From Buxus sempervirens (Eukaryota; Streptophyta; Magnoliopsida; Buxales; Buxaceae), in the NCBI GenBank assembly GCA_947561395.2, contig OX387193.1, forward strand, positions 33,802,255-33,866,254: a stretch of DNA of 64,000 nucleotides, read 5' to 3'. Below are positions 3,383 through 29,824 of the stretch, in pieces (the first letter of the stretch is position 1; each line of letters starts with the position of its first letter). The notes beneath the pieces are model-generated. The model saw only the letters and a list, made by a program, of their open reading frames with translations. It searched no databases and had not been told where the DNA came from. A program made the translations under genes and the position numbers.

Positions 3383-4044
3383 AAGTCTCAATAGGGAAAA
3401 AGTTTCTCCTGTGACCCATTTTCTTGGACAGTGATCTCTGATTCTTAGGAGCCATGTAATGTGGCTCTTAAATTAGACGCTTTCCAGCATCAAGTAAAGA
3501 AAAGAAAGATATCACTTATCAGGAAAAATAAAAAATAAAAGAAGAAAAAAAGATGCCAGTCCCCCATCCTTTAATTTCCTTTCCGTTCTTTTTTGATTCC
3601 AGTGAATTTTCAGTATATGAAGAGTTCCGGTTTTTCCTTTCATTCATGATTGATTGAGTAAATTGATCTGTTAAGCAGCTTGGCACATTCTATCCCATTC
3701 ACGAAAAAAAAAAACTAATGAGCTCAAAGTGTTTGTAGTGAAGAAGTAAGAAGATTTTTTAAGCCATTTTTTATATTCAACATGTGTACATATGCATAAC
3801 TTGAGCACATTCGCATAATGGTTATGCATAATTTGCACTAACATGGGTACATATGCAACAAAGTATAAAAGCTAAATAATTTGAATAAGATTAATGAACT
3901 AATTGTTTATTAAAGTGATTTTGCTGATTTTAATTATTTACCACTGCTTGACATGTGAACGCGTCTTTGTTGCTATTATTTCAGCATTGACCACACAAAC
4001 ACCAAATACATTATTCATCTATCAATAAAAAAATATATAAAAAA
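3383..4044. other. AT-rich intergenic DNA
   Basis: Non-coding, AT-rich, with simple A-tracts (for example near 3704-3715). No gene or recognised repeat is seen. Its last nine bases (4036-4044, TATAAAAAA) are the left copy of the target duplication of the large foldback element. Confidence 0.5.
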
Positions 4045-4385
4045 GGGAAAATTAATTTTTAGTTATACTTTATCAAAATATTTAAGATTCATTCCCCAAA
4101 GTTTGGACTTTGTGCGATTCAAGCACCTTTATCAAAAGATTTAAGATTCAGTGGCATTTTACTGTTAGAGACCATTTTCTTCCAAGAATGCCCTTTTCTC
4201 ATTTAAATAAAATAAAAATTAAATACACACGTTTCCAAGATTACCATTGTTACATTTGGAATTGATTGAATTAAGTATATTTCCAAAAATGCTCTTTACC
4301 CCAACTTTCTTATTTTTTGTTTTTATTTCTTTTCAAAAAAGAATAAAGAAAGAAAAGGACGAGAGAGAGGGTCTCAATAAAATGA
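4045..4385 (+). repeat. Left terminal inverted repeat (unique part)
   Basis: Outer, non-satellite part of the left arm. It contains TTTAAGATTCA twice, a stretch reading AAGAATGCCCTTTTCTC, and the GAGAGAGAGGGTCTCAA block at the junction with the satellite. Each of these is found as reverse complement at 24080-24422, in the same order and spacing. Identity looks above 85% by eye. Confidence 0.85.
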
Positions 4386-4786
4386 CTTGTACAATAGTGT
4401 ATCTTGACTTGTACAGTTATAAAATAATCAGTACCATTCAATCAAATCACACATATATATATATATATAATATGTGCCTATAGAGAGACTTGTATATCTT
4501 TACCAAATGACTTGTACAATTTTATATACCGACTTGTATGATTCAATCAAATGACTTGTATCTTTTATCAATCGACTTGTACAACAATATACACTAACTT
4601 GTACATCTATATAGATTTATACCCATCTATCAAATGACTTATACAATGCTAAGTACTGACTTGTACATTTATAGGAGAACTTGTACAACTCAATCAAATG
4701 ACTTGTACATTCTACCAATTGACTTGTACAACAATATATACTAACTTATATGACTAAATAGACTTTTACCTTTCTATCAAATGACT
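4386..4786 (-). repeat. 147-bp satellite, left arm, segment 1
   Basis: Tandem units with the core ACTTGTAC roughly every 20 bases, read here in the ACTTGTAC orientation. About 2.7 monomers. The array is interrupted at 4787-4791 (TGTAC), the target duplication of solo LTR 1, and resumes at 10342. Confidence 0.85.
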
Positions 4787-4791
4787 TGTAC

Positions 4792-7700
4792 TGTAACGCC
4801 CCGGATCCGAGTTACGTAGAGAAACTATAACTCATCTTCGGAGGTTAATAAATCACACAGGATCGCAATATCAGAGTGAAGGAAAAACATGAATACAACA
4901 ATAACTATATAATCAGAGTACGCTAAAAACCCAAACTGAAATAAACTCACATGACCGAGCAACTACCCGCAGGAATCATCCTCTCCAAGAGCAGCTGAAA
5001 ACAAAATAAAACAATACGGAATGAGATACGAATATCCCAGTGAGCAGCACATGCATGCACAATTACATTTAGTTCAGTTCTAAGACATGCCACGGTTACA
5101 AAACATATACAGTGACGATAACACATAAAATTCGAGTAATCCGTCAACATCCCAACAATCCAATCGATATAAACGCAGAAATCCATCATGTAACCCAAAT
5201 TAATAACCTCGGTATCAAATCTCGAATACAGCCATGAAATCAAGTATAACCAGGTAACCATACATCGATGAAATCATAATTTCAAATAACTCACGGTTTT
5301 GAAATACTGGAGAGTTTATCATGGGCCACGCCGCACCAATATAGTATTTTATCATCGGCTACTCTGCACCAATAAACCAGCGAATAAAACATATTATATC
5401 AAACAAAATCAAATACCAACATTGGTCAATGTCATGTAGTTGCTTACATTGGTTAATTGACATGCCAAGGCGACATCCACCCCTCAATGTACACAGTTCC
5501 GGCCTACTCAGGGTTTCGGACACTATGAAATGAAGGCCTACTCAGGGTTTCGTCATCCAATGTCAGCCTACTCACCGGGTTTCGGCATTGACAACCAGGC
5601 CTACTCAGGGTTTCTGGCTGCTCTACACCGGCAGTGGAAACACTCAAAGCCATGCAATTACACCAACGAAGTAATAACATCACATTACTAAGCTTAGACT
5701 CTGGATCCAGGCAAGTTAAACCAGCAGTAAGTATAAAACTAGCAATTCAACCCAAGGTGTTTTCCATCATGTAAAACTGACATATAGATCAACATGTTCA
5801 AGTGCATAACATGGGTCACTCAGGACCAGCTTACTTCCTCATGGAGTCCTCCAAGTAAATTCTCAAATAATTTCCCATAACAGAATAAGAGATAATTCTA
5901 AACTGGCCACCGATATAAAACAATATTCAAGTAAATCATTCCTGAAGTGCACCTTGCATTCAAAGGTGAACTAGCATAATAGTGTAGATGAATTTCAGCA
6001 AAACAAATATGGTTTCAAAACTGACTTTTCAAAAGTAAACACATTATACAGATACAATTACAGCATCCAAACTTCGATTAAACATAAACTAGCAAAACAG
6101 CTCCTAGATTCTCAATTTCGCTTTCATAATCCAAATCAATCAAACGAATGTCATAAAACCTTGTAAACACATTTTGGATGAGTGGAATAGTCTTAGGATC
6201 CTCTATAAGGTCATCATACAAAAAAAAATCAATTCCGAGACAAAAAGTTTTGGGACCTCAAAATATTCTAAGTCTGGTTAAAAACGTTGACTTTTGGTGT
6301 ATAATTTTTCTAGACAAATTAACAGGAGTTTCGGGCTCAAATTTTGGTTGTAGTCTATTGCAGGGTAAACACATCTCCTAGAATTTTATGGGCTTCTGAA
6401 TCACTCATCTGGGTATCAAACCCAAAATGGAATTTTTGATAAAAATCGGGAAAACTGGAAATTTAGGCATGAACTGGAAAGTTGACTTTTTAATGGCTGG
6501 GAATTGGACCTTGGAAGTATTTTTATTGATTCCAAATGAGGGGTAAAACCTTATTTACATGTAAAGACTTAAGTAATAAGGGCGCTGTTTTCAACAATTA
6601 AAACTCATTTGATCCATCTACACCTAGGTTTATACAAATTCATAAACTAATGAGCATCCTAAAATTTCATTAACACTAAGTTAGTTCCCATAGATTAGTT
6701 TTTATGAGGTAAAACCATCAAATTCTGGGTATATATGATTTGCCGCACTTAAAGTGAAAATTGGGTGGGTGTGCTGACCTCAGGCCCTTGGCGCTAGGTC
6801 GGCGCTAGGTTGGCGGACCCAAATTTTTACATGCGCCAAGCTGCCGCTGAGGGGAATAGGTTGGCAGCAGCTTGGCGGAAGCTCCCCTGTTTCTCGATAA
6901 TGATTTTTTTCTCACTGTTAACATCAAATAGCTATGACTGTCCTAGTTTCATGACTCTGTAATACTTTTTCTATGATCCTACTACTTTCAACAGATGATT
7001 CAATAAAAAACAAAATTAATCTAACACACTTCATATTACGACTCTAAATCTCATCGAATAATCCACATTAGAAACTAAAATTCTTCCACAACATGCAGTT
7101 TGGTAAATCTCAGAAAACAAAACCCAAAACACAGATTAAACCGATGCTACTCACCTGATTCGAATACCCTCAAGTTCAGAAACTCCTAGGCCTCGACTGA
7201 GCACCAACGGCAGCGATTCTCACTCCAAAATCTCTGCCGCTCACCTCCGATCCCAAATCCTCCGCCCAAAAGTTCCAAATCTGATCTCTTGGTCCGAAAC
7301 GACTGAGATCTAAAACCTGCTGCCACCAAAATCTTCGACATAAGAAATCTACCACTGGTTTCCCTCTCAGCCACTCCAACTCACAGCTCACATTCACCTT
7401 CTTATTTTCTTCTCGATCTGATTGAGCAACGGCCGCAACTCCTCCTTTGACCCTTGCTTTCCTCCACTGTTTCACGAATCTTCCTTCACATTTGATCAGC
7501 CAAACCCTAATTTAACCCAACAGGGACCTATTTATAGGCCGATGGTAGTGCTCAAACCACTTAACTTATTCATGATCCCATGTATACTCACATACACCAT
7601 TTCTCTACAGGATCATCCTCTTAACCGTTGATTAAGAACTTGCCACTCCACCAATGGCCTATACTAGCATCTTACCTAAGAAAAAAAAATTTGGACATAA

Positions 7701-10341
7701 TATTATTATTCAGCTAAATTTATAACCATCACTTGTTTTAAATTAAATCTCTTCTCATTTAATTTCCAGAATTCCAAAATTGCCCTTGCTCGCTATGTAA
7801 CGCCCCGGATCCGTGTTGTTCAATAAAGATATAATACGTCTCACGGAGGTTAGGCAAGGATCGATAATTAAATATGATTGCTGGATAATCATCTAACTAT
7901 AACCTGTCAGAGTGCACAATTTGATTCATCCAAGAAATGTAACGTTTAGACTTAACTAGAAACATATGGTTCAACCCCCAAATAGACTTTAATACACCTC
8001 AAATATTCAAAGTACTCAAATTCGAAACAAGATAACCTACAAGTCTAAGGAAGGTAATAGTAATCTTCCTCCCTATAAGCCTCAGCAGTATCTACCTCAG
8101 TAGTCGCCTCACCACGAGTATCTGAAAATCACAACAAAACAGCAGAGTGAGATACAAATATCTCAGCGAGTAGCACATGCATGCAGAAATAGTTAATCAC
8201 AGTTCAAAGCTATGCATCTATAAACGTTCCGTACGATTAAACAACTCATATCAATATCAAGTTCAAACCAAAACCCATCTCATCTGTCAAATCACATCTC
8301 AGTTAAGTACGACAACACATCGATCGGTCAATGTCATGACTATCGTTTAGTTGATAAATTAAACATGCCAAGTAGACACTCCACACCTCCATGTACACAG
8401 TTCCGGCCTACTCAGGGTTTCGGAAACTCTGAAATGACGGCCTACTCAGGGTTTCGTCATCCAATGCAGGCCTACTCCCCGGGTTTCTGCATTGACAACC
8501 AGGCCTACTCAGGGTTTCTGGCTACTCTACACCGGTCGTGGCAACACACAAGGCCATGCAATTCCAACAACCAACAAATAACATTACATTACTAAGCTTA
8601 GACTCTGGATCCAGGACAAGCTAGACCAAAACAGTAAAACATCTTATAATCTCAATTCCACATTTAAAGTAAAACCATTCATTCCACATCATGTATATCT
8701 CATTATAGTTCATCACCTGTCCCTCTGGACCAAACAGTATCTCAATACTTTCAGTATTTCTCATTTCCACAAAACCATGCCATTTGAATACAAACACATT
8801 TATTTATAACAAGACAATACATTTCAGCATTTCCCAAAACAAATGAAACCAGAAGTCAATAATTTCTCAATTAGAACAGTGTATAAGTTCGAGGAGAAAA
8901 CGACTAAGAACTCCTAGAGTTTTGGTATCCAGCACAACATATATAAAATAACCCACACTCATCCTTAGGAATCTTTAAGAATTTGCCACTAGCATTCTCC
9001 TAGGAATTAAATAAGAAATGCAGGTTCCAAGGTTACCAACAAGTGATTGGTGAAGTGATATAAACCCCAAGACATCAAATTCCCCCTTGGTTCAGTCGGA
9101 AATCAAATTCGGTAAGTTAAATTGGGTATGCGCTCACTTCCTGAAGTGAGCGCCAGTCGGCGGATAGAAAATAGGCGAAAATGGACCATGCGCTCACTCG
9201 ACGCTAAGTGAGTGCGAGCTGAGCGGGAGAAAGGCGCGAGAAGAGCGCGGGATAGGCGCGAGAAAAGCGCATCGGTTTTAAGTAGGCGCGAGCTCGGCGC
9301 CAGATCAAATTTCTTAGGCGCCTACTTCCAGAAGTGGGCGCAAGTGGGCGCCAAGTGGGCGGATACCCACTGCGAATTTCGAGTCTCTGTTATTTCGAGA
9401 TCTCCAACTCTGGCTGGTTTGTTTAGGTCTGTTATTGCTCCATTACACTCCTAATGCTCCCAGAAGACTTCCCAACCCATTTTGGATTTAATCTAAACAT
9501 CTTTAATTTCACATTAATTTTCAATCTTCGTTCGTAACTCGCGGTATTCTAGAAAAACCCAGAACTCACAATACGACCATGCATTTCAAAATACATCACG
9601 AATAAACTAAAACCTCGGTTTTAAATCAGTGCTACTCACCAGTATGCGCTTAATCCTAGAACAACAGCTTCTTCCACAATCGGCCGAGCACGACTCCGAC
9701 TGCGCGCGAAGATGAAATGGTAGCCGAACAATTCCTCTGCTCGCGAGAGAGATAACCCGCAGAAATCCGACTCCAATAAACTCCTGGCAGTCCTTCCGAT
9801 TCTTGTTCTTCACGGGAATACCCTAATCGCCATTTCAGCCGCAATCGCTAAATCGCCCAGCTCTCCAAATAACGAGACTAACGAAAAATTATTTCCTTAA
9901 GTATGATACAAGTATTCCTACAAACCCAAAACCCTACTTTCCCTTTTTGGTAATCCTTACCTCACGAGACATACGCCGCTTGATAACTTTCCAATTTCCT
10001 TGATCCTATGCGCGCTCGCCCACTGGAAACCCTACCTGTTCCGGCCACTTAGGTTAACAAGCTCCCAAGCTATATTTTAATAATAATAATAATAATAATA
10101 AAACAAAAACAAAAAAATAAAACTCACCAAAAATCAGGGTCTTACACGCTACCATACCACCAACCCTACTAATGAAACTAAAATAACGGATTTGCCTTTT
10201 TTTAATAATTTCTCCTATTTTATTTAATTATTTTTCTCTAAATAATTCCCTTTTCTCTATTTCTAAGATTTTCCATTAATTAAACTAATTAACAACAAAA
10301 TCTCAAAATTTTTAATGTTATTAAAAATTCGGGAATTTACA
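4792..10341 (-). mobile_element. Solo LTR 1 (TGTAAATTCCC...GGGGCGTTACA), carrying nested solo LTR 2
   Basis: Plus-strand ends are TGTAACGCCCC and GGGAATTTACA, flanked by TGTAC at 4787-4791 and 10342-10346. Without the nested copy it is about 3.19 kb. I place the LTR sense strand as minus. Relatives then start TGTAARACC and end GGGGCGTTACA, and a TATA-like CCTATAAATAGG lies on that strand at 7527-7538. It holds no gag or pol, so it is a solo LTR or an LTR-sized derivative. Internal features are a direct-repeat block built on CCTACTCAGGGTTTC (5500-5615) and a GC-rich patch (6785-6890) with GGCGCTAGGT repeats. Assignment to a chromovirus such as Tekay/Del is inferred only from the end motif. Confidence 0.85.
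7796..10146 (-). mobile_element. Solo LTR 2, nested in solo LTR 1
   Basis: A 2,351-bp insertion with plus-strand ends TGTAACGCCCC and CAGGGTCTTACA and a perfect 5-bp duplication CGCTA (7791-7795 and 10147-10151). Read on the minus strand it starts TGTAAGACCCTG and ends GGGGCGTTACA. It carries four CCTACTCAGGGTTTC/CCTACTCCCCGGGTTTC units (8404-8520) and a strongly GC-rich block at 9125-9370 with GCGCGAG and AAGTGGGCGC repeats. No coding domains. Short open frames, such as a 76-codon one at 8365, recur in solo LTR 4 only because the LTRs are related. Confidence 0.88.
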
Positions 10342-11218
10342 TGTACAATACAATGTTCTGACTTGTACCTTTATAGGGGTACCTGTACCACTCAATTACA
10401 TGACTTGTACCTTCTATCAATTAACTTGTACAACAATATACACTAACTTATACGATTATATAAACTTATACCCTTCTATTAAATGACCTGTACAATGCAA
10501 AGTACTGACTTGTACATTTATAGGAGGACATGTACCACTCTATCAAATGACTTGTACCTTCTACCAATTGACTTGTACAACAATATATACTAACTTGTAT
10601 GCTTAAATAGATATATACCTCTCTATCAAATGACTTGTACAATATACAATGTACTGACTTGTACCTTTATAGGGGTACAGGTACCACTCAGTTTTAATGA
10701 CTTGTACCTTTTATGGATTGACTTGTACAACAATATACACTAACTTGTACGCTTATTTAAACTTATACCTCTCTATCAAAACTTGTACAATATTATGTAT
10801 AGACTTGTATCTTTATAAGGGGGCCTGTACCACTCAATCAAATGTCTTTTACCTTTTATCGATTAACTTGTACAAAATATATACTAACTTGTATGCCTAT
10901 ATAAACTTAAACATTTCTATCAAATGACTTATATAATACAATGTATCGACTTGCACTACTATAGGGCCACTTGCATGAATCAATCAAATTACTTGTACCT
11001 TGTATCAATTGACTTGTACAACAATTTTACGTTAACTTATATGCCTATATCTCTCTATTAAATGACTTGTATAATGCTATATACAGACATGTACACTTAT
11101 AGGGGGAGTTGTACCATTCAATTAAATGACTTGTACCTTTTATTGATTGACGTGTACAACAATATACACTAACTTGTACGCTTATATAGACTTATCCCTC
11201 TCGATCAAATGACTTTTA
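10342..11218 (-). repeat. 147-bp satellite, left arm, segment 2
   Basis: About six monomers in the ACTTGTAC orientation between solo LTR 1 and solo LTR 3. The first five bases are the right copy of the TGTAC duplication. Sub-repeats such as AATGACTTGTAC, ACTAACTTGTA and CTATCAAATGACTTGTAC recur in the same order in each monomer. Confidence 0.85.
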
Positions 11219-11223
11219 TAATG

Positions 11224-14200
11224 TGTAACGCCCCGGAACCGGGTTACGTAGAAAAACCGTAATTCATTCCCAAAGGGTTACTTATATACACAAGATCGCT
11301 ATATCAGAGTGAAGGATAACATGAAATAAAAAATAATATAATCAGAGTTAACTAAAAATCCCCAACTCACCTGAAACAAGTATATACCCGCCTGTATCGT
11401 TCACTCTGAAATCTGAAAACAAAACAAAACAAAAGGAATGAGATACGACTATCTCAGCAAGTAGCAGCTCAAATATATTTAATTTAATTTCTAAAACATG
11501 CACGATTAAAACATACTCAACGATTAACCATGGATAAATCGATTAATCCAACTAATCCGGCAAAACAATATCAAACCACAAAGTAAGGTGGGACTAGTGA
11601 AATTTGACCACTTTGTAAGGTTAAGTTCTAGTTCCAAACAGTTCCAGTCCGAGAACCTCTGCCAAATTTGATACCTCTGTAAACTGATTCCAATATATAT
11701 CGTCTCTTGGTGGAAATCACAAGACCTCACCATCTCCAAGGGTGGAAATGGATATCAATCCAGTCTGAGAACCACTGTCGAAACTGTTGCCAAGAATAGA
11801 CCTCACCCCCTCATGGGGTGGAAACGAAGTTGCTGCAGCACATCCCTCATGGAAGGCCTCTTTATATGAAGGAAACGCGTAAAATAAATCCCTTTTAGTT
11901 CGCAGCACTTCCCTCATGGAAGGCCTCTCCGCATAAAGGAAATGCATGAAGGAAGCTACTTTAACCAAACAAATTAGACAGACTTCACTTATTAGCTAGA
12001 TTATGGATCCATAACGTGCTATGCCCTAAATAGCGTAAATAAAGACCAACAAGTACAACAAAAGCTTTGCTTCAAACCAAGTATTTCGATGTGCAAAACA
12101 ACATATATCCAAGTGAGAATAAACATAATATGGGTCACTTAGGGCCAAAACCTACTCCCTCATGGATGTGTCCAAAGTACTTTCTCATGAAACAATTTTC
12201 AAGAATAAAATACATGCAATTCTGATTCCAATTTTCAATTAAGAATACAGTAATTAAATAAATCATTCGGCAAACACTTAGAGTATTCAAATCTGTCTCC
12301 ACAACACAAATTCAATAAAATTCTATTAAAGAAGATATCACCCCAAATCTGGAGTTTCTTACGTTAAACCCATTATATAAAAATAAATCCAACGTTGAAA
12401 CTTCCGGTTAAACACAAAATAGAAATAACAGCTCATAACTTACACCTCTCTTCACTTTACTTTCATTTTGTAATTCAAAGACCTTAACCAGCAAATTATT
12501 AAAAAAACATAATAAAGACAATATTCAGGTCATGCAGTACTTTCCACTAATTTGATGAGTTTAAATCAGCTCACAGTTTCCCGAATAACTAGTTCTCTTC
12601 ATGCATAAATTCAGATTTGCAAGTCTTCATTTAATTGACCTCAAATCTAATTAGTTCTTAATCCTTATTATCAATATAAATTCTCTGTAAGTTTCTAATG
12701 TCATTTGCATGCTAAATGAATTTAAATTAGCTCAATTTAATAAGATTAACAAGCTAGAACTTTAGTTATACCCCAATGACCATTGCTTAGTTCCCCAAAA
12801 GACCATTTCTCTTAGGTTAATCCATAACATAGTTTTGATCCAAAAATAAGCTCAAAGGAGTCTCACCTATTTGTTGCAGAATTATAATCGTGAACATGTC
12901 ATCATATTCCTTTAAATTCTCATGTCAATTTATCTTCCATAAAATGCATAACTATAGCTGTAGAAAATTTATAATATGTTTTTGGAATTGTGACTTCCAG
13001 CAATTCGTTTAATTCATAATATTATTCTGTTCTCCATAATAATTCTAGATGCCTGAGATACTAAATAAAACTTAGATGAAACTAATTGAACAAGTTTAAA
13101 ATGCTGAAACTATTTTTATATTCAATTATCTAAACAGCTGCATTTTACCTTTAGAAATTGAGCTGGTGCTGACCCGGGGCTGGCCTGGATAGGTTGGCAC
13201 CAGGTTTGTACCCACAAAAAATTGAACTGGCGCTAACCTCTTTGAGGTTAGCCCCATCTAGCATCAGGTTAGCGCCAAGCATTTTTTCCACTTCCGTAAC
13301 TTCCAACTTACGGCAAATGCATTTCTTAAAGGACTGAACCAAATCACTCCAACCAAAACACTTCTAACATGATGAAAATCATCCTAGTAATACAATAATA
13401 CTATTTCGAATTTAATCTAATTAGGCGAATGATAAATCATAGATCAAACGTTAGTCTACGAATAGAATTTTGCAACTTCTGTTTTCATCAAATCTAAACC
13501 TGTTAATGTACAACTCATGCGATCAAAGTTGTTAAAAAGGTGCTACTTGCCTGTCGTGTGCTTAACTCCAACTTCACCAGAAATAGCAGCAAAATCAGAT
13601 GTCTCTCCGCGCTCAGAGTTTCCTCGACGAACTGATCTGAATTGGGACTTGGACGTCTTCTGCTCCAACAGATCAGTCACGAACTCCACTCACGAGCAAA
13701 GCTTCTCCCTTCGCTTGGATTCCTCAAATTCAAACTCTAAACCTCACTTCCACAGATCTGAAACCCTTTTCTTAACTTCCTAGCTTTACGTTACGATGGT
13801 TAAGCTTCTTCAGCAATTAAACAATCGTAACTGTTTTGAGCGCACGGAGTTGACGATGAATTTCCTTACATTAAGAAAACTCCTCAACTCCTTCATGATC
13901 CGGTGGAACTCTACTCCACCGATTGCCTACACCAACCACCCAATAACCATTGATAATTTGATTTAATCACCCAAATCATTTCAACAGCACCACCTGAATT
14001 TTATTTAATTTAATTTATATATAATATTTACTATTGAACTTATAACAAAACTTACTTACCCTTATTTTATTAAATCCGACTTTTGCTAAATTCCCAAATT
14101 GCCCTTGTGACACAACTACCTGAATTATCCCTCATTATTAATTTTTAATAATATTAGCAAATTCTTTATATTAGGCTAATAAAAAATCTGGGGTCATACA
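11224..14200 (-). mobile_element. Solo LTR 3
   Basis: A 2,977-bp insertion with plus-strand ends TGTAACGCCCCGG and GGGGTCATACA, flanked by TAATG at 11219-11223 and 14201-14205. Read as minus it starts TGTATGACCCCAG. It belongs to the same family as LTRs 1, 2 and 4, but its internal repeat is different: a unit containing CCCTCATGGAAGGCCTCT occurs twice (about 11845-11950) in place of the CCTACTCAGGG units. The GC-rich patch is at 13160-13290. No coding domains. Confidence 0.87.
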
Positions 14201-14360
14201 TAATGTTATGTATTGACTTGTACATTTACGGGAGGCATGTACCACTCAATCAAATAACTTGTACCTTCTATCTATTGACTTGTATAACAATATAAGCTAA
14301 TTTGTATGCCTATATAGGCTTATAACTCTCTATCAAATGACTTGTGTATTGCTATGTACT
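14201..14360 (-). repeat. 147-bp satellite, left arm, segment 3 (innermost)
   Basis: About one monomer in the ACTTGTAC orientation, from the right TAATG duplication of solo LTR 3 to the start of the central spacer. Confidence 0.75.
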
Positions 14361-14440
14361 GAATAAAATGACTTATACAATTTTCTTATAATATCATCCA
14401 TAAGTCTATATAAGCATACATTTTTCCTATAATATCATCT
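14361..14440. other. Central spacer of the foldback element
   Basis: About 80 bases between the two oppositely oriented satellite arms. It contains a tandem duplication of a unit with CCTATAATATCATCTATA-like sequence followed by a TCTATATAAG motif. Satellite orientation changes from ACTTGTAC to GTACAAGT across this spacer, which makes it the loop of the palindrome. Confidence 0.7.
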
Positions 14441-14561
14441 ATACGTCTATATAAGTGTACAAGTCAGTACATAGCATTATACAAGTCATTTGATCAAGAG
14501 GGATAAGTCTATATAAGCATACAAGTTAGTGTATATTGTCGTACAAGTCAATCGATAAAAG
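14441..14561 (+). repeat. 147-bp satellite, right arm, segment 1 (innermost)
   Basis: Slightly less than one monomer in the GTACAAGT orientation. It ends at GTACA (14562-14566), the target duplication of solo LTR 4. Confidence 0.75.
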
Positions 14562-14566
14562 GTACA

Positions 14567-17494
14567 TGTAAAACCTCGATTTTTTGCTAAGCTTTTATTT
14601 ATTTATTATTTATTTAAAATTCATTATGTGTACATATTAACTTAAGTAGATACGGGTATACGTAGGGATTTCGGTGGACGAGCGTACACGGAATCAATGA
14701 TTTTCAAAGGTTGTCGAGAGGCAATATGTATGGAAGGTATTTATACTAAAGGGGAAATTAGGTTTTGAGTAGAAAAAAAATAATAAACAATATAAAATAG
14801 TAGATAAAATAAAATATATGCAAAAGTATGAACACAAGGATTTATGGACAGGTTTAATCAAAATTTATTTATTGCTAGAAATTTGTGGTCATTAGTTGTC
14901 AAGGAGAGTGAGGTGGAATATTAATACGTAATTAATTATCAAACTTAAAAATATGGTAGTGAATAGGAAATTAGCCAATAAGTAAATACGGGAAAGCCAA
15001 GTTGAATGAGGGGCAGAAAGGGGATTCCGAGGGTTAATAAAACCTCGAGGGTGAATTAGGTTAAACTTTTGCGATGTTTTATAAATAGGTAACTCATATA
15101 AATTTTCGGGGATTTGGGGGAAGGTTGCTACTCTGAAATTAGGGCGGCTACTGTGGCGATTAGGGTTTCGCTGGGAAGAGATGAGAACCGCGAGAGCTAC
15201 GACCGGATTAGTGGAGTCGGATTTCAGTGGGTTATTCCTCTCGCGATCAGGGGATAGTTTGGCTACCTTCACATCCTCGCGCGGAGCCGGAAATCGTGAT
15301 CGGCCGGTTGTGGAATAAGCTTTTATTCTGGGATAAGCGTATAAGGGTGAGTAGCACTGATTTAAAACCGAGGTTTTAGTTTATTCGTGATGTATTTTGA
15401 ATTTCATGGTCGTATTGTGAGTTCTGGGTTTTCTGGAATACCGTGAGTCCAAACGTCAGATTGAAAATTAATTTGAAATTAAAGATGTTTAGATTAAATC
15501 GAAAATTGGTTGGGAAGTCTTCTGGGAGCATTAGGAGTGTATTGGAGCAATTACAGACCTAAACAAACCAGCTAGAATTGGAGATCTCGAAATAACAGAG
15601 ACTTGAAATTCGCAGTGGGTATCCGCCCACTTGGTGCCCACTTGCGCCCACTTCGGGAAGTAGGCGCATAGGAATATTGACCTGGCGCTCAGCTCGCGCC
15701 TACTTGGCGCTCAGCTCGCGCCCACTTAAAATCGATGCGCCTATCTCGCGCCTATCCCGCGCTCTTCTCACGCCTTTCTCCCGCTCAGCTCGCGCTCACT
15801 TAACGTCGAGTGAGCGCATAGTAAATTTTCGCCTGTTTTCTATCCGCCGACTGGCACTCACCTGGCGCTCACTTCAGGAAGTGAGTGCATGCCCAATTAT
15901 ACTTGCCGAATTTGATTTCCGACTAAACCAAGGGGGATTTTGATGTCTTGGGGTTTATATCACTTCACCAATCACTTGTTTGGTAACCTTGGAACATGCA
16001 TTTCTTATTTAATTCCTAGGAGAATTCTAGTGGCAAATTCTTAGAGGCTTCTAAGGATGAGTTTAGGTTATTTTATACATGTTGTGCTGGATACCAAAAC
16101 TCTAGGAGTTCTTAGTTGTTTTCTCCTCGACTTTATACACTGTTCTAATTGAGAAATTATTGACTTCTGGTTTCATTTGTTTGAAAAATGCTGAATGTAT
16201 TGTCTTGTTATAAATAACTGTGTTTTGTATCCAAATGGCATGGTTTGTGGAAATGAGAAATACTGAAAGTATTGAGATACTGTTTGGTCCAGAGGGACAG
16301 GTGATGAACTGTGATGAGATATACATGATGTGGAATGAATGGTTTTACTTTAATGTTGGAATTGAGATTATACGATGTTTTACTATTTTGGTCTAGCTTG
16401 TCCTGGATCCAGAGTCTAAGCTTAGTAATCTAATGTTATTTGTTGGTTGTTGGAATTGCATGGCCTTGTGTGTTGCCACGACCGGTGTAGAGCAGCCAGA
16501 AACCCTGAGTAGGCCTCGTTGTCAATGCAGAAACCCGGGGAGTAGGCCTGCATTGGATGACGAAACCCTGAGTAGGCCATCATTTCAGAGTTTCCGAAAC
16601 CCTGAGTAGACCGGAACTGTGTACATGGAGGTGTGGAGTGTCTACTTGGCATGTTTAATTTATCAACTAAACAATAGTCATGACATTGACCAATGTTGGT
16701 ATTTGATTTTGTTTGACGCGATATGTTTTATTCACTGGTTTGTTGGTATTTATGGTTCATGGAATATTGTTTACCGATTATTGGGTATTGTACCTCCCGC
16801 CGGTGTAGAGCAGCCAGAAACCATGAGTAGGCCTGGTTGTCAATGCAGAAACCCGGGGAGTAGGCCTGCATTGGATGACGCAGTCATTTCAATATCCGAA
16901 ACCCTGAGTAGGCCGGATATACATTTGGAGGCGTGGGCATTGTTATGAGAAGGCTTTGTGTTATATGACATTGGTATATCTGGAATTATATCTTGAGATA
17001 CGAAATTATGGTTAATTGCTATGTTGTTGTCAGTTAATCATTATTTTATCGATATCTTCGGGGTTGGAAACGGATTGTTATTGCTTGATTTACCTGATGG
17101 TTTTTCGCACTGATATGAATTGGATTATTGAAGATTAGTCGGATTATTCGGAATATGTGTGTTATCATCATTGTATATGGTTTATAACCGTGGCATGTTT
17201 TAAAACTGAAATAAATGTATTTGTGCATGCATGTGCTGCTCACTGGGATATTCGTATCTCACCCTGTTGCTTTCGTTTTGTTTTCAGATACTCTTGGAGA
17301 GCTCGATACTTGCGGGTAGTTACTTGGACATGTGAGTTTTATTTTAGTTTGGGGAATATTTTAGCGCACTCTGTTATATAGCTATTGTTGTATTCATGTT
17401 TTTCCTTCACTCTGATATTGCGATCCTGTGTTTTATAATAACCTCTGGAGACGAGTTATGGGTTTTTCAGGTGACTCGGATCCGGGGCGTTATA
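14567..17494 (+). mobile_element. Solo LTR 4 (mosaic of LTR 1-like and LTR 2-like sequence)
   Basis: A 2,928-bp insertion with ends TGTAAAACCTCG and GGGGCGTTATA (last T mutated from the family TTACA), flanked by GTACA at 14562-14566 and 17495-17499. A TATA-like TTTTATAAATAGG near 15077 fits a plus-strand sense. From 14567 to about 16680 it follows solo LTR 2, including the GC-rich block (15610-15890) and the CCTACTCAGGG units (16497-16615). From about 16690 to 17494 it follows solo LTR 1. The switch falls at CATGACATTGACC (about 16679-16691). A second CCTACTCAGGG block lies at 16800-16920. No coding domains. Confidence 0.87.
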
Positions 17495-17663
17495 GTACAA
17501 GTCTCCCTATAAGTGTATATGTCTGTATATAGCATTGCACAAGTCATTTAATAGAGAGATATAGGCATACAAGTTAACATATAATTGTTGTACAAGTCAA
17601 TCGATACAAGGTACAAGTCATTTGATTGATTCGTGCAAGTGGCCCTATAGTAGTACAAGTCGG
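17495..17663 (+). repeat. 147-bp satellite, right arm, segment 2
   Basis: About one monomer in the GTACAAGT orientation between solo LTRs 4 and 5. It begins with the right GTACA duplication and ends with GTCGG (17659-17663), the target duplication of solo LTR 5. Confidence 0.82.
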
Positions 17664-20247
17664 TGTGAGACATGGAAAAATCACCTACGTGATCTCCTAA
17701 TCATCACACGAGATTCACAAAATTATGGAGTTGTCACCATTCATATTAAGGTATGAATGGACACCAAAGTGAGCATAAAAAGAACAAAATAGAGCTTAAG
17801 TAGTTCTAATTCATAGTCTAGTCCAGCGATTAGATAAGGGGGTTAGGTTATGAGTAGAGGAAGGTGTTAGGCACCCCTACTCATCCACACAAGGTGTTTG
17901 CCATATATTACTCATGCTTAATATGCTTGTAAACAAAAATACTCAAAAGTAATATGTAAAATAAACAAATAGATGTGTGATTCCTCTATATGAGTAGTCC
18001 AATAAATCCTAGACACTTTCTATGGATATATCACTTCTAGGACTTCATGATTAAGTAAAAAATCAAGGCAAAACTTGAAGAAAAGCAAACTAAAACAAAT
18101 CTGGAAAAATCAATTCAAGATTAAGCCATTTTAACTTGGAAAACTCAACCAACCATAAGTCATTCAATTTAAACTTAAATTGAGTGAAACCAAAGCCATT
18201 TAAAAGCTTATATGAAGTAGAAGATTCAATAAAAATTTCAATTAAATCCAATTGAAATCAAAGAAAATACACTTGTCTAAAGTTGCTGTTGTAAAACAGT
18301 AAAAGCGATAAGTAGCCAATTTTGAAAACCTATTAGTGGAGATTGGCTCCATATAAATCCTTGAAAATTTGTATGAATGAACTATGAGGTGCTATCTTTC
18401 GAATGGAATAAGCCTCACTCAAAACTTAATCTATTTGTAACTTGTGTGCCCTCTCAAACACGCCTAGAAGATAACAGATTGACTTTGTAATCTGCTACTG
18501 GGCAGTACAAGGTCAATCAAACACACAGAACTAAAATTAAAGTGAAAACTCATGAAACTACTTGGATTTGAAAGTAGACTCATAAAAGAAGACTCAGGAA
18601 TTGAAATCACTCAAATCGGAGTTAAAATGAGCCATTGATACTCAATCAAAGTGACAAGTTCAGCAATATGATTTGATATGACTTATCAACTTTAATAATA
18701 TGGCTTGAAAAATTGGCTCCATATAAATTGCTGACATTTTACAAGAATAAACTAGACATCTTCACCTATCTCATGTCTCTGGAATCATTCATAAATTCAT
18801 CTATATGACGAAGTTATGAATGATCCAAAATAAGGTACAGGTTTTGTCCAGATCTGTAAAATTGAGTGAAAATCAAGCCAAAAAAGTGTGTGTGTGTGTG
18901 TGTGTGTATGTGTGTGTGTGTGATTGATCTATATGATCTGAATTGAAATCATTTGAAAGGAGTTGAAAAACATCCAAAAATATTTAGGACATGGATTTGG
19001 CTCAGATCTCTCATTATTTGGAGAGGGAGAGCGAAATAAACCCACATTTAATGAAATTTGTTCAAATAAGAGAGATTAGACCATGAGGTCTTCACTAGAA
19101 CATTAAAACCAATTAAAATTAATTCAAAAAGTCTTGAGAGATTGCTCTAAGGCCTCTGATCTTAGATCTACTATATTGAGCATAGTAGATCTAAGATCCA
19201 TGCCTATTTTGTCAAAAAACAAGTGATGTGTGCATGAAATTGTGTAGGAAATCAGATTTTAAGGAGAGAATTGAGATTTAAGCTATAGAGAGCATAGATC
19301 TATATAATTTCTCCAAATTTAAAACAAGATCACATACAAATAGTAACCACACACAAATCAACATGAGTCATGCAATTATCTTATCACAAATGGTTCTAAA
19401 CCTAAGGATCCATTCTAACACTTATTTTCCCTATTTCTTTCTTCACGTTTTATGGCTAGAGAGGGTGCTTAAGGTACTTTAAAGCATGGTTTTTGGGGTT
19501 ACAAAACACACAAAGGACCTTATCTACAGAAAGGTAGAAGAAGAGAGTGTGCTTGAATTGAAATAAAAGAGGAGAGAAAGCTTAGAAGCTTACCTTGGTT
19601 GCTTAAGTGCTTGAGTGGAGAATTGAGCAGAGGTTCCCTTCTTCTTCAAGAGCTCTTCAAACTTTAGATTATTAGCCATTTGCTAGAGGAGAGGCAATCT
19701 ATTTATAGGCAAGACCAAGGGCAATAAAGTCCTAAGGGTAGACACAAAAGTGTGTCTTTACCCTTCCAACTCAAGTCTAAAGCATGAATTGGAGGAATTT
19801 GGCCAATTTTAGAGGCTAAATTAGGGAATTCACACTTCTCAAATAGAGGTAAATATGTAATAAGTGAAAACTCACAGGGTTTTTCAATCTGGAATAAAAC
19901 ACTTGTATCCGAAAACTCATGTCGGATACAAATAAATTCTTTGTATCCGACATATTATTTCGGATCAAATTCAGTTACAACCATGTGCAATTACTGATGT
20001 GGCCTAACTGTAAAAGATTCGAAGTCCCAGCTCATAGGCATGATCCGAAATATTATTTCGGATACACATATAAATTTTAAGTCTGACATATTATTTCGGC
20101 CACAAAATAAAAGATTTTATCCAAAATATATTTTCGGCTACAATAAAAATAAACATATCCGAAATATAATTTTGGTCAATCAAGATTAAATTCTTTTTAG
20201 CATGTATTTATTCATTGTTTTATACAGTGCGATTTGGGGTGTCTACA
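17664..20247 (-). mobile_element. Solo LTR 5 (TGTAGACACC family)
   Basis: A 2,584-bp insertion with plus-strand ends TGTGAGACATGG and GGGGTGTCTACA and a perfect duplication GTCGG (17659-17663 and 20248-20252). On the sense (minus) strand it begins TGTAGACACCCCAAATCGC, the same start as the Ogre-element LTRs here. A CTATAAATAG TATA box lies at 19708-19699. Upstream of it, at 19904-20160, is a cluster of short inverted repeats with TCCGAAA/TTTCGGA stems. A (TG)n microsatellite is at about 18890-18922. No coding domains. Confidence 0.87.
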
Positions 20248-21534
20248 GTCGGTACATTGTATTATATAAGTCATTTGATAGAAAGGTATAACTTTATACG
20301 GGCATACAAGTTATTATATATTATTGTACAAGTTAATCAATAAAAGGTACAAGACATTTGATTGAGTGGTACAAGTCCCCTTAAAAAGATACAAGTCTGT
20401 ACATAATATTGTACCAGTTTTGATAGAGAGGCATAAGTTTAAATAAGCGTACAAGTTAGTGTATATTGTTGTACAAGTCAATCGATAAAAGTTACAAGTC
20501 ATGTAATTAAGTGGTACATGTACCCCTATAAAGATACAAGGTAGTACATTGTATTGTACAAGTCATTTGATAGAGAGGTATAAATCTATTTAGGCATACA
20601 AGTTAGTATATATTGTTGTACAAGTCAATTGGTAGAAGGTACAAGTCATTTGATTGAGTTGTACAGGTCCTCCTATAAATGTATAAGTTAGTACTTAGTA
20701 TTGTACAAGTCATTTAATAGTGGAGTATAAGTCTATATAGTCATACAAGTTAGTGTATATTGTTGTACAAGTCAATTGATATAAGGTACAAGTCATGTAA
20801 TTGAGTGGTCCAGGTACCCCTATAAAAGTACAAGTCGGTACTTTGTATTGTACAAGTCATTTGATAGAGACGTATATGTCTATTTAGTCATACAAGTTAG
20901 TATATATTGTTGTATAAGTCAATGGATAGATTGTACAAGTCATTTGATTCAGTTGTATAGGTTCTCCTATAAATGTACAAGTCAGTACTTAGTATTGTAC
21001 AAGTCATTTGATAGAGGTGTATAAATCTATATAGATGTATAAGTTAGTGTATATTGTTGTACAAGTCGATTGATAAAAGATACAAGTCATTTGATTGAGT
21101 GCTTAAGGTCCCCCTATAAATGTATAAGTCTGTGCATAGCGTTGTACAAGTCATTTGATAGAGGGGTTTAAGTCTATATAGGCATACAAGTTAGTGTATA
21201 TTATTGTACAAGTCAATTGATAAAAGATACAAATCATTTGATTGAGTGCTAAATGTTCCCATATAAATGTACAAGTCTGTACATAGCATTGCACAAGTCA
21301 TTTGATAGAAGGGTATAAGTCTATATAAGCATACAAGTTAGTGTATATTTTTGTTCAAGTTAATCGATAAATGGTACAAATAGCCCTATATATGTACAAG
21401 TCAATACATTGTATTATACAATTCATTTGATAGAGAGGTATAAGTCTATTTAGACATACAAATTAGTATACATTGTTGTACAAGTCAATTGGTAGAAGGT
21501 ACAAGTCATTTGATAGAGTGGTATTGTGAGACAT
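20248..21534 (+). repeat. 147-bp satellite, right arm, segment 3 (longest clean array)
   Basis: About 8.7 monomers. The anchor AGTCATTT occurs at 20561, 20708, 20855, 21002, 21149 and 21296, five successive steps of exactly 147 bp; earlier steps are 146 and the last is 125 (a deletion). Each monomer splits into seven sub-repeats of 22, 18, 22, 21, 22, 20 and 22 bases with the shared core TACAAGT. The first five bases are the LTR 5 duplication and the last five (GGTAT) that of LTR 6. Confidence 0.9.
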
Positions 21535-23626
21535 GGAAAATCAACTAAATGACTTCCTAATCATCACACGGGGTTAATAAAATGAAGGAGTCGCCACTAT
21601 TCCTTTTTAGGTGTGAATGGACACCAAAATGATCAAATAAAATAAAAAAGGCAAAATTAGAGTTAAAGTAACTCTGTTTTAAGATTAAATCTAGAGATGG
21701 GTAAGGGGATTAGCTTATGAATAAGGGAAGGTGTTAGGCTCCCCTATTTATCCACACAAAGTGGTTGCTAAGTACCGCTCATGCTTGAAAAACTTGCTTG
21801 CTAATAAAACTCAATCAAAAGTAAAGAAAAAGAACAACAAAGATGTATGGTTCTTCCATATAAATGGCCCAATTAATTCTGGACCCTTCATATAAGTACA
21901 CCATTTTTAAGGTTTCATGACTGAATAAAAAATCAAAATAAACTCAAAGAAAATAAACCTAAAGTAAAACTTGGAAAATTGGCCTTAGGTTAAATCATTG
22001 AAGTATTGTAAAATCAACATGAAACAAGTTGAAATCTTTTGACAAAAGCATTGAAGAATAAACCTGTAACCATTTAGGGTAAAGATCTGGCCTATATCTC
22101 TCATTAATTGAGAGGAAGAAACCAAATCTACCCATATTGATGAAAAAAACCTCAAAAAGGGAGAGTTTAGGCCATATAATCCTTTCTCAAAAGTAAAGCA
22201 ATTTTGAAATCATTTTATGAAATCCTAGGGATTATTTTAAGGCTTTTGATTTCAGATCTACCATATTGATTATGATAGATCAAGAATCCTAGCTTATAAT
22301 AACCAAAAGAAAGAAGGAAATTGTGAGGAGGGTGTAGTTGTGTGGAAAATCAAAACATCTAGGAGGAGGAGAGGATCTGATGCTATGAACAGCATAGATC
22401 CATGGGATTCCTCCAGATTCAGAATAAAATAAGAACACAACATAAACAGAATATTAAAAGACACATATCAGAGATTATAACATATAGGGTTCTATCGTAC
22501 AGATCCATTCCTGTTCTCCTTTCCCCTAGCTCTCTTTTCACGTTTTACAGCTAGAGAGGATGCTTGAGGTACTTGGAGTTAGGTATGGGGTTACAAATAC
22601 AAAAATGCCTTATTCTACAGAAATGGAGAAGATCAGACTAACCATAGAATTTAAGAAAAGAAAAAGGGGAGAGAGGCTTACTTGGGTTTGAGAAAGCAGA
22701 GAGGCAGGGGTTCCCTTCTCCACTTTGAGCTCTTCTAGCTTCAATTCTCAGCCCTTTGCTTGAGGTGAGACCCTCTATTTATAGGCAAACCCAGGGGCAT
22801 GGTTGGTCACAAGGGTATGCCAAATTAGGGTTCTAGAATCTTCCAACTCAGTTTTAAAAGTTGGAGTAAATCTAACAAACCACGGAGGGTAAAAAGAGGA
22901 ACTCGAATCTCCTAGAGAGAGATAAGAGTGTAAATAAGGCTCAGAAATCGAGTATTTGAGAATTTGCACAAATTACGCATGTTCGCATACTATATGCGGT
23001 TTTGTCCAAACCGCATACCATATGCGGACAAGACCAAAATGGCCTGTTTGCACAGGTTCTACATAGCCTTGGCCTTTACCTGCATAGGCAATACTTATTT
23101 ACATGTAATATCATTTAAGTAAATGTCATCGTATTTTTTAATATTCATTTATTTAAGATATTACATGTAAATAAGCAAACACCCCCCTCCCCCATTTGAA
23201 TCCATTAAAAATAGTTCCAGACCCAAATTCCAAGTGAATAAAAAGTCAACTTTCCAGTTCAAGGCTAAATTCCGGTTTTTCAGGTCCGGTAAAAAGATTC
23301 AACATGTTAATACCAAGGTATTTGTCAAGATTTAAAGGCTCAAAAAATTCATTTATGCAATAACATTGCTAAAAACCTGATTACCGGGAAAAATTATCTT
23401 GAAATCTTGCTTAAAAAAATATTTCATTTTTTGGGTCAAAAGTCAACAAAATTCAACCGGAAAAGTTTGACTTTGCGCAAAAGATTGAATTTCGGCCTTT
23501 TCTTTTGTGGTTGTAGATTCAAATGGGTTAAGGCTCTCAAACCCAATGCTAAGAATTGAAAATTTCAATAAGATATTTCTCTCCTTCAAGATTTATCATA
23601 AATTGTGCAATTTTGGGGTGTCTACA
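21535..23626 (-). mobile_element. Solo LTR 6 (TGTAGACACC family)
   Basis: A 2,092-bp insertion with plus-strand ends TGTGAGACATGG and GGGGTGTCTACA, flanked by GGTAT at 21530-21534 and 23627-23631. On the sense (minus) strand it starts TGTAGACACCCCAAAATTG. A TATA box is at 22784-22775, followed by a leader with close matches to the LTR at the window end (CCTCAAGCAAA, GGGAACCCCT, CAAGTAAG). Two short palindromes with CCGCATA/TATGCGG arms are at 22984-23027, about 200 bp upstream of the TATA box. No coding domains. Confidence 0.87.
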
Positions 23627-24079
23627 GGTATAGGTCCTCCTATAAATGTACAAGTCAGTACTTAGCATTGTACAAGTCATTTGATAGAGGGGTATAAGTC
23701 TGTATAGGCATACAAATTAGTATATATTGTTGTACAAGTCAATTGATAGAAGGTACAAGTCATTTAATTAAGTGGTACATGTACCCCTATAAAGGTACAA
23801 GTCAGTACATATCATTATACATGTCATTTGATAGAGGAGTATAAGTTTATATTGTCATACAAGTTAGGGTATATTGATGTACAAGTCAATTAAATGAAGG
23901 TACAAGTCATTTGATAGAGTGTACAAGTTAATACATTAAATTGTACAAGTCATTTGGTAAAGATATACTAGTCTTTTTACAGGCACACACACTGTATATA
24001 TGTGTGTGTGTGTGTGTGTGATTTGATTGAATGGTACTAGTTATTTTATAACTGTACAAGTCAAAATACGCTATTATAC
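23627..24079 (+). repeat. 147-bp satellite, right arm, segment 4 (outermost)
   Basis: About three monomers in the GTACAAGT orientation, running into the (TG)n microsatellite and the unique part of the right terminal inverted repeat. It is the mirror partner of the outermost left array at 4386-4786. Confidence 0.82.
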
Positions 24080-24422
24080 AAGTCATTTTGTTGAGACCCT
24101 CTCTCTCCTCCTTTTCTTTCTTTATTATTTTTTGAAAAGAAATAAAGACAAAAAATAAGAAATTTGGGGCAAAGGGCATTTTTAAGAATATACTTAATTC
24201 AATCAATTCTAAACGTAACAAGGGCAATCTTGGAAACGTGTGTATTTAATCTTTATTTTATTTAAATGAGAAAAGGGCATTCTTGGAAGAAAACAGTTTG
24301 TAACAGTGAAATGCCACTGAATCTTAAATCTTTTGATAAAGGTGCTTTGAATCACACAAGTCCAAACTGTGGGGACTGAATCTTAAATATTTGATAAAGT
24401 ATCACTAAAAATTAATTTTCCC
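24080..24422 (-). repeat. Right terminal inverted repeat (unique part)
   Basis: Reverse-complement partner of 4045-4385. It includes TTGAGACCCTCTCTCTC at the satellite junction and CTAAAAATTAATTTTCCC at the extreme end. Just inside it a (TG)n microsatellite near 24000-24020 faces a (TA)n tract at the equivalent left position (about 4453-4470), so the simple repeat has diverged between the arms. Confidence 0.85.
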
Positions 24423-24431
24423 TATAAAAAA

Positions 24432-27108: not shown

Positions 27109-29426
27109 TGTGCGCACCTAAACCTGGCCTAGATCGCACACCGGGCGCACCTTCGGTGCGTGCCTCGGGATTTTCAGAGTCGCCACTGCCTGAGAGTGCA
27201 GGCAGACACGGTTTTGCCCTAATCGGGTCTAAGTCTGGTCTGCGGCTTATTAGAGATCTAGCTAAGTCCTCGGTTACGGTTCGGGGAAGTCCTAAAGACA
27301 CCCCGGTCCGCCCTGTCGGTTTGACAGGTCCCTCGGGTCTCCCTGGTTTTTGAGTCAAGTTCACCCTTCCTAGACCAGCATGCTACTTTGTTAGGTCTGG
27401 CGGGGCCCTCTGAAGGTGTGGGTCCCTTTTTATTTGATTTTATCTTTTTATTTATTTAAGTGAAGTGGGTCGGATCCGGGTCCCGCTGGAAGACCCGTGG
27501 GTTGCCATGGTTGGGCCTTGGGCCCAGTTGGGTTATTGGGTAACCCATTTGGTTTTATTAAGTTTTATTTATTTACAATTTTAGTTTGGGCTTAGTGGGC
27601 TTGGAATGGGCCCATTAGCCAAAGTCTAGTGGCCTGGACCCGTTTTATTGAAAACGGGCCGGGTTTTGGGCCGGTCAGAAATGGGCCCCACAAGTGGGCC
27701 AAAGGGATCTTAATGGGCCTATTCAGGCCCAAAGTCTAAAAATGGGCTTAAAATAGCCCAAGTGGTTTAAGGGGATGGTTTAAACCGGTTTAGGCCGGAT
27801 CCGGTCCAACCAAACCAAGAAATTACACTTTTTACATTATTTCGCATTTCGCCCGTGTTTGCTCTACGGTCCAGCCTGCCCGTGAATGGATTCCGGTCCC
27901 TTCTGCCCGTGAATCAGACACGGTCCAGGCTGGACCGGCCTGAGTTTACGGGCGCAATCAGTTCTGTGCTTTTGCTGCCGATTCTTCTTGGGATTACTCC
28001 GGCGGCTTTCTCAGGTATTCTGGCAACTTCAGTGGTGCTTCTAGGCCCTTCGAATTCCCTTGTAGCCTTCAATTGGCCTAAAAGGCCGGATTTTTCTTCT
28101 TCTTTCTCCTTGGGTTCTTTGCTGGAAGATCAACCCCTTTGCTAGTTGTTCATAGCTGCTTCTTAAGAGGGGAAATGGATGATTTATAGGGGATATTAAG
28201 TGTCCTTAAGAAAAAGCTGGATCTTTCCATATTAAGGGATTAGAAATAACTATTTTGTTCTTAAAAAAACTTTCTTTTCTTCCTTTTTGGCAATGGTTTT
28301 ACTTCTGAATTCATATGGCATCTAATGCAGTTAGTTTATTTTGTTGGCTTTGTGGTTCTCCAAAGAGTTGGGCAGCGCTTCCGCGTCCTCCCAAATTTGC
28401 CGGATTGAAATGGGAAGGGCTTGGTTAATGTGGATGGATTTAAAACCAAATTAAAGGGGATTTGGGCATGGTTTTGGGGTAATTTTAGAGCATAAGGGTA
28501 GTTTGGGTATAACAAGAGGTTTAGGTTAGGAGTGGTGGAGGTTGAACAAGGTTTGGCCGTGGAGTGCACCAAGAGGGAGAAGGGAGCCAGCAAGGAGGAA
28601 AGCTTGTTCCAAATGAGGGGGGTGGCCTCTCTATTTATAGGCAAAAATCCCGTGCCCGTACTTGAATTACGGGCATGCCTTGCCCGTACTTCAAGTACGG
28701 GCGTGCCTTGCCCGTAATTCAAATACGGGCGAAAAACGAATATTTGCAATTATCGCAGATTCGGCCGTACGGGACGCGTGTCTCGCGGTACAGCGACGCG
28801 TGTTGTCCTTCTAGAAGCGTGCCCGTACTTTAAATACGGGCATGCCCTGCCCGTAATGTAAATACGGTCCCGCACGTTTTAAAAATGTGTGGATTTCAAA
28901 CCTTTATTCAATTTGGCTTATTGCAGGATTTTTATCCGATTTTTCGATTATTTTATTAAAAAAGCGAGATTCTTTTTATTAAAATATTATTAAACACATT
29001 TATCTTATTTATTTTATTGGTTTAGTCCATTTTTGCTGCCTTTTTGCCACATGGGCAGTTTTTCTGAAACTTCAACTGCTCATAACTTCTTCATCCGGTG
29101 TCCGATTTCTACAAACTTAGTGTCGTTGGAATCAGCTCGGAACCACCTATCCATTATGATTAAGTTTGGCAGCTGAATTGGGGTCGAGCAAAAAGTCAAC
29201 TTTTTGCTCCCCAAAAGTTTGACCAGCTCATATATTTTTCATCTGGGCTCCGATTCCAGCAAATTCAGTTGCGTTGGAATCGTGTCGAAATGCTCTTTTC
29301 AATGAGATGAAGTTTGATGGCCAAATTCTCTTAAATCAAAAAGTCAATTTTTGACCCCCTCAGGGTTTGACTTTTAGTTTAACTTTTCATTTTTTATTTT
29401 GGGGGTGCAAAAATCAGGTGTCTACA
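27109..29426 (-). repeat. 3' LTR of the Ogre-type element
   Basis: On the sense strand it starts TGTAGACACCTG and ends GGTGCGCACA. A CTATAAATAG TATA box is at 28640-28631. Just upstream of it (28654-28860) lie five inverted repeats with arms GCCCGTA(A/C)TT and their complements; the one at 28682-28702 is perfect apart from its central base. Sequence downstream of the TATA box is rich in GGGCC and CCCGT motifs. A short hairpin CGCACCTTCGGTGCG is at 27146-27160, about 40 bases before the LTR 3' end. Confidence 0.95.
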
Positions 29427-29440
29427 GCTGCCCCTCTTTG
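29427..29440 (-). promoter_or_regulatory. Polypurine tract of the Ogre-type element
   Basis: On the sense strand AAAGAGGGGCAGC directly precedes the TGTAGACACC start of the 3' LTR. This is the expected position and composition of the plus-strand primer for reverse transcription. Confidence 0.8.

Positions 29441-29765: not shown

Positions 29766-29824
<59 letters not shown>

Follow-up and report, generated by a model that had tools for sequence, protein, structure and literature searches.

A stretch of 64,000 nucleotides from Buxus sempervirens (contig OX387193.1, positions 33,802,255 to 33,866,254; termed here the window) very probably harbors a single non-autonomous foldback DNA transposon of about 4.2 kb, best placed among the Mutator-like elements (MULEs), which was inserted once into TATAAAAAA and now spans 20.4 kb between the two copies of this 9-bp duplication. 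The element proper extends from 4045 to 24422, and the span of 4036-24431 given in an earlier note on this DNA was found to enclose both duplications. As that note had claimed, TATAAAAAA is exact at both flanks; a local first-order model gives a probability of 2.9e-5 for its presence at any one flank site, and 54 of 4,004,001 pairs of 9-mers between the flanks are equal. The first 18 bases of the element, GGGAAAATTAATTTTTAG, agree at 18 of 18 positions at 4045 and, inverted, at 24422, and the inverted similarity of more than 400 bp ascribed to the ends was recovered as 90.8% identity over 426 columns (4045-4469 against 24422-23999). The terminal inverted repeats (TIRs) have a unique part of 327 bp, which is 91.8% identical between the two ends when gaps are counted and 92.9% when they are ignored, and which falls within the approximately 100-500 bp expected of MULE ends.

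Inward of these ends, both arms are built of tandem units of a 147-bp satellite, for which the profile finds 10 long units on the left side and 14 on the right, and such tandem repeats inside the arms are a hallmark of the foldback class. The opposed orientation of the satellites, which had been read from the sequence alone, is mirrored in the strand counts of one word: ACTTGTA and its complement TACAAGT occur 37 and 2 times in 4045-14405, 1 and 52 times in 14406-24422, and once each outside the element. The central spacer is likewise real, as the left-oriented repeat ends at 14348/14362 and the right-oriented one starts at approximately 14439-14477. When five insertions of the long terminal repeat (LTR) type and one copy of each of their duplications are removed, 4,212 bp remain, in agreement with the ancestral palindrome of about 4.2 kb that the earlier note had envisaged, and this remainder is matched by an uninterrupted copy of 4,334 bp at another locus (L028). 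In the predicted fold of the remainder, positions 1 to about 450 pair with 4212-3760 and about 451-1650 with 3045-1845, the register shift of approximately 720 bp corresponding to about five units found in the right arm only. Long inverted arms make up most of the element, as is usual for foldbacks, with 1,180 of the 1,817 predicted pairs spanning more than 1,000 nt, and the computed folding energy of -2485 kcal/mol lies below the -865 to -899 of four Markov controls. The 147-bp repeat is itself partly self-complementary, its profile also matching the reverse strand at the same places in four other copies, and therefore not all of this pairing is arm-to-arm. Hairpin RNA could possibly arise from a palindrome of the predicted shape.

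Self-alignment of the window revealed a single palindrome rather than two elements. It might still be supposed that two independent elements, each with its own satellite, happen to face each other here, or that a satellite array was inverted by chance, and that the 9-bp repeat is a coincidence, in line with the facts that most of the 4.2 kb is satellite and that the duplication in the window consists of A and T only. This supposition is extremely improbable: the pairing of eight consecutive units in mirror order gives a mean identity of 0.887, which was reached by 2 of 100,000 partner permutations, the register having itself been picked from the data, where it scored highest of the listed offsets (mean 0.857 across nine pairs; 0.682-0.797 for the others). 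The whole arrangement is, moreover, present without interruption in L028, duplications flank the end pairs of other sites, and the copies L028, L035 and L037 already contradict it.

The search of the plant's own genome covered the 676.5-Mb assembly, in which the window belongs to contig C19. Other copies of the ends, whose existence the earlier note had made a touchstone, were abundant: the 345-bp end (4036-4380) gave 44 matches, with 40 scored among 1,432 first-look candidates, and the 18-bp end occurs 2,078 times at no more than one mismatch (1,049 forward, 1,029 reverse), compared with 5 occurrences (3 forward, 2 reverse) of its reversed control. The element accordingly represents an abundant plant family, whose recognisable ends number about two thousand in this genome; a literature search, which says little on this point, found no description of this very family. 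Among the 100 places listed, all of them exact matches on contigs C1 and C3, neighbours within 7 kb were counted by eye, which gave 14 facing pairs (+ then -) and none back-to-back (- then +). In total, 24 inverted pairs were assembled, namely 11 through matches to the 345-bp end (the window, L016, L025, L027, L028, L011/L018, L017/L019, L022/L021, L030, L031 and L032; the first set) and 13 through facing 18-bp ends, the fourteenth facing pair being L025.

Duplications were sought at those ends whose partner lay in the DNA read, to the exclusion of unpaired ends. In the strict register, a 9-bp duplication is exact at 11 of the 24 pairs, within one mismatch at 15 and within two at 19, while the cross-pairing control yielded 0, 7 and 23 of 552, respectively. 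With one base of slack on each side, 14 pairs are exact and 19 lie within one mismatch (control, 0 and 16 of 552). The 9-11 bp target-site duplication that typifies MULEs is thus found in the strict 9-bp register, as the note had anticipated, and several examples go beyond simple A/T runs, including TGAAATCTT at L022/L021, TTGAAGTTT at L035, TAATTTCTT at L045 and, with one base of slack, CGGTCAATT at L039.

The long copies share the design of the window element. L028 carries no noted insertion, with arms 94.1% identical over 1,854 columns and arrays of 11 forward and 14 reverse units, and L035, L036 and L037 (3,979, 4,092 and 4,051 bp) all have forward followed by reverse arrays. One LTR-type insertion each is present in L025 (duplication GATGG) and L032 (duplication ATCTT, where a second, less likely pair of boundaries fits as well), without which these copies measure 4,118 and 4,141 bp; so freed, L032 can be aligned along its full length with its own reverse complement, at 90.6% over 4,192 columns. 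The usual size of the long form therefore looks like approximately 4.0-4.3 kb, and a smaller satellite-armed copy of 2,858 bp exists at L031. Forward arrays on the left and reverse arrays on the right were observed in 7 of the 10 first-set pairs outside the window, the middles of the three longest having been read only in part.

Recurrence of this design at other sites shows the palindrome to be inherited within the family and not a product of the insertion in the window, and formation of both arms in one event at this locus was rejected on the same ground. The Kimura two-parameter (K2P) divergence of the window copy is alike in the ends (0.075) and the inner arms (0.079), which would suit a palindrome born there by local inverted duplication, or evened out there, after insertion. 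A comparison of ends, which comprised nine of the eleven first-set elements (all but L027 and L030) together with nine single ends, also lends something to this account, because the two ends of one element differ by 0.031-0.088 in pairwise alignment and in 9 of 9 elements lie below the mean distance to other copies (0.091-0.105); for the window the value is 0.071 by pairwise and 0.095 by multiple alignment. Similarly, the arms of L028 are slightly closer to each other than to those of L025 and L032 (88.1-92.2% in arm-length matches; matches over 3 kb stand at 83.3% and 77.9%). The nearest relative of an end is, however, its own partner in only 4 of 18 cases, a weakly supported tree makes the two ends sisters in 2 of 9 elements, and the mirrored layout recurs at independent sites, each with its own duplication. 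A local origin is thus refuted by the design common to other sites and is very unlikely, with some evening-out between arms being possible. As the own partner is nearest for only 4 of 18 ends, the arms may have differed already at insertion; dating of the insertion from the arm divergence was therefore rejected, and no age is given.

Several observations weigh against a single Mutator-like foldback transposon. Some copies are not symmetric foldbacks: in L016 (3305-9420) every satellite array is reverse though the ends are inverted, in L027 arrays occur on the right side only, and in L030 none was seen in the DNA read. Five of the 24 pairs still differ at two or more positions when one base of slack is allowed, the pair of L031 lacks any duplication, and the duplication of the window element is A/T-only, that of L016 being poly-A and uninformative. 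No transposase was detected in the window stretches, where Pfam comparison of 99 of the 141 stop-free stretches of at least 45 aa gave one weak COMM match, nor among 15 open reading frames (ORFs) of at least 150 aa from L009-L032, which matched only reverse transcriptase, RNase H, zf-RVT, a plant mobile domain and, weakly, APOBEC_C. The longest open frame in the 4,212-bp remainder has 105 codons and none in the window copy is transposase-like; the 105-aa frame across the right end had no protein-search match at E up to 1, and no curated RNA family reached its gathering score in 3000-26000.

Hence, of the Mutator-like reading advanced in the earlier note, the duplication length and the end structure stand, and a transposase was not encountered in the DNA scanned; membership of the Mutator superfamily is suggested by these two features of the sequence. 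In the extracts of the papers cited here and below, MULEs are described with duplications of 9-11 bp and ends of 100-500 bp (PMC3310237), with typical 9-nt duplications and G-run ends (PMC4486113), and with duplications of 7-12 bp and ends that can exceed 300 bp, the family of the latter authors having mostly 9-bp duplications and conserved GGG ends (PMC9168764). The element in the window fits all three descriptions, which argues against a foldback transposon of the same structure from another superfamily that also makes duplications of about 9 bp. Such an assignment is unlikely, even with no transposase seen in the stretches and ORFs scanned; it draws on the statement in PMC4079207 that foldback structure may evolve in different lineages, with exceptions to Mutator named, and on the placement of Galileo in the P superfamily in the reference list of that paper.

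In the preferred reading, a short centre is flanked by two inverted arms, in each of which the 327-bp unique end gives way to tandem 147-bp repeats. The transposase that would bind the ends in trans and move the element by cut-and-paste is most likely of MuDR type and encoded at another locus, insertion into TATAAAAAA having presumably duplicated that 9-mer. LTR retrotransposons later landed in the satellite arms, where they were probably reduced to solo LTRs, and the element thereby grew to 20.4 kb.

A second size class emerged from the 13 facing pairs, 9 of which are 405-490 bp in length and palindromic throughout at 74-81%, with L040 measuring 1,372 bp. The short copies match the window end over 107-160 bp at 71-78% on one or both sides, the left side of L041 having only 60 bp in common with it. 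Weak matches to the 147-bp profile lie near their centres, 7 of 9 above a stricter threshold, so that roughly one weak unit sits at the centre of the 0.4-0.5-kb copies versus about 8-14 units per arm in the 4-kb copies. The two classes, short palindromes and satellite-armed 4-kb forms, are the most interesting lead of the analysis. The short copies may be precursors, derivatives or a sister subfamily of the long form. A possible, albeit rather doubtful, proposal is that the family records how a short palindromic miniature inverted-repeat transposable element (MITE) became a satellite-armed foldback, in that the unit at the centre multiplied outward and the length then stayed near 4.0-4.3 kb, and that hairpin RNA from the long palindromes may also silence the family in trans, these palindromes in addition gathering LTR insertions by which they are broken up.

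The closest known design is Tetris, a foldback of Drosophila virilis (PMC4079207), which is likewise non-autonomous, has long TIRs with internal tandem repeats (of about 220 bp) and duplications of 8-10 bp, and shares its terminal parts with the short MITE DAIBAM, much as the long and short copies are related here; it differs in belonging to an insect and in that its 220-bp repeats are found in longer arrays beyond the element as well. Its authors suggest that Tetris belongs to Mutator. FARE of Arabidopsis, compared by description (PMC4486113; reference list of PMC3169594), is also a foldback of plants, carries long palindromic repeats at either end and is now classed with MULEs (PMC4486113). 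The Tm1 Mutator/Foldback family of root-knot nematodes (PMC3169594) resembles the window family in its composite TIRs with tandem repeats, its MITE-like members and its duplications of 8-10 bp, mostly 9 bp, at 45 of 53 complete elements, and differs in its repeat motif of about 14 bp and in one group that encodes a putative transposase. The MuTAnT MULEs of Medicago (PMC4486113) have foldback ends with G runs, 9-nt duplications and non-autonomous copies of mostly 200-300 bp; in contrast, they target TA microsatellites, a putative autonomous partner is known, and the extract describes no long satellite arms. Multiple-TIR MULEs of tomato, maize, rice and Arabidopsis (PMC3310237) likewise multiply terminal units, the tandem-end form being more prevalent than the single-end form in one family, although they double whole TIRs whereas the window family repeats a separate 147-bp unit about 8-14 times per arm in long copies. 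By analogy, the window family appears to be of the same kind as Tetris, Tm1, MuTAnT and the tandem-TIR MULEs. At L009 and L010 (178-625 in both), a second partial end lies directly outside the main end, as in tandem-TIR MULEs; both loci are on C22, 202 kb apart, and are 98.7% alike over 7.8 kb.

The five LTR-type insertions in the arms, together with a sixth nested in the first, account for 16.1 kb (Table 1). All six have perfect 5-bp duplications and five of the six have TG..CA ends, insertion 3 ending in TA; insertions 2-5 are 2,102-2,977 bp long. The LTR that starts at 62789 is matched by insertions 4 and 5 at 64-76%; neither of the two window LTRs tested had a match in insertions 1-3 or the nested one, and the LTR at 27109-29426 was matched by none of the six. 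They are probably solo LTRs, with which the absence of retrotransposon domains from the insertions (99 of the 141 stop-free stretches in Pfam) is consistent, and the related window LTR supports this for insertions 4 and 5. That five of five landed in satellite seems unremarkable because satellite forms most of the element. The weak COMM-domain match (13466-13780; 22.6 bits, cut-off 22.4) lies within insertion 2; a captured host gene was rejected, given that this sole domain match belongs to that insertion and not to the foldback element itself.

Table 1. Features of the foldback element and its insertions (window positions)
Feature	Position	Strand	Remarks
Left 9-bp target-site duplication TATAAAAAA	4036-4044	.	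exact copy at 24423-24431
Left TIR, unique part, 327 bp	4045-4371	+	91.8% to inverted 24096-24422; 44 genomic matches to 4036-4380
Left satellite block 1	4372-4791	+	147-bp repeat units
LTR-type insertion 1, solo-LTR-like	4792-10341	+	TGTAAC..TTTACA; duplication TGTAC; 5,550 bp including nested insertion
Nested LTR-type insertion within insertion 1	7796-10146	+	TGTAAC..CTTACA; duplication CGCTA; 2,351 bp
Left satellite block 2, after second TGTAC copy	10347-11223	+	147-bp repeat units
LTR-type insertion 2	11224-14200	+	duplication TAATG
Left satellite block 3	14206-14361	+	147-bp repeat units
Palindrome centre: spacer and degenerate repeat	14362-14474	.	41-bp unit x2.1 at 14375-14462
Right satellite block 3	14475-14566	-	14475-14569 92.6% to inverted 11129-11223
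LTR-type insertion 3	14567-17494	-	duplication GTACA; right end TATA instead of TACA
Right satellite block 2b	17500-17663	-	17492-17662 92.4% to inverted 10947-11117
LTR-type insertion 4	17664-20247	-	duplication GTCGG; related to LTR from 62789
Right satellite block 2a	20253-21524	-	147-bp repeat units
LTR-type insertion 5	21525-23626	-	duplication GGTAT; related to LTR from 62789
Right satellite block 1	23632-24095	-	partly within the approximately 720 bp without left-arm counterpart
Right TIR, unique part	24096-24422	-	pairs with 4045-4371
Right 9-bp target-site duplication TATAAAAAA	24423-24431	.	exact match of left copy

In the surroundings of the element, 27109-45779 is an LTR retrotransposon with the duplication GCTGA, which is probably recent because its LTRs are 99.5% identical over 2,322 columns; a minus-strand frame at 40667-42160, upstream of a gag frame, matches DUF7745 and the plant mobile domain. 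A second Ty3-type element occupies 53951-64000 on the plus strand, with a gag-like frame from 53951 and pol-like frames to 61206 (assigned by eye) and an LTR that begins at 62789 and to which insertions 4 and 5 are related. Between 51762 and 53854 lies a 78-bp tandem repeat of 27 copies, adjoining a frame for copia-type reverse transcriptase (51074-51790). At 1259-1870, about 2.2 kb from the foldback element, there is probably a 3' exon of a gene for the trihelix transcription factor GT-3b; its relatives reach at most 67% among the 120 matches listed and come from flowering plants wherever a species is given, and a gag search yielded no relatives at E up to 1e-60.

Long palindromes can escape annotation when insertions draw their ends 20 kb apart, and intact copies elsewhere in a genome can prove the reconstruction of one so buried; the present palindrome is unusual for how well this can be verified. 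As a family of at least two size classes, with ends numbering about two thousand in a single genome, it is a good test bed for the growth of satellites inside transposon ends, the settling of long copies at about 4 kb, and a possible contribution of palindromes to small-RNA silencing.

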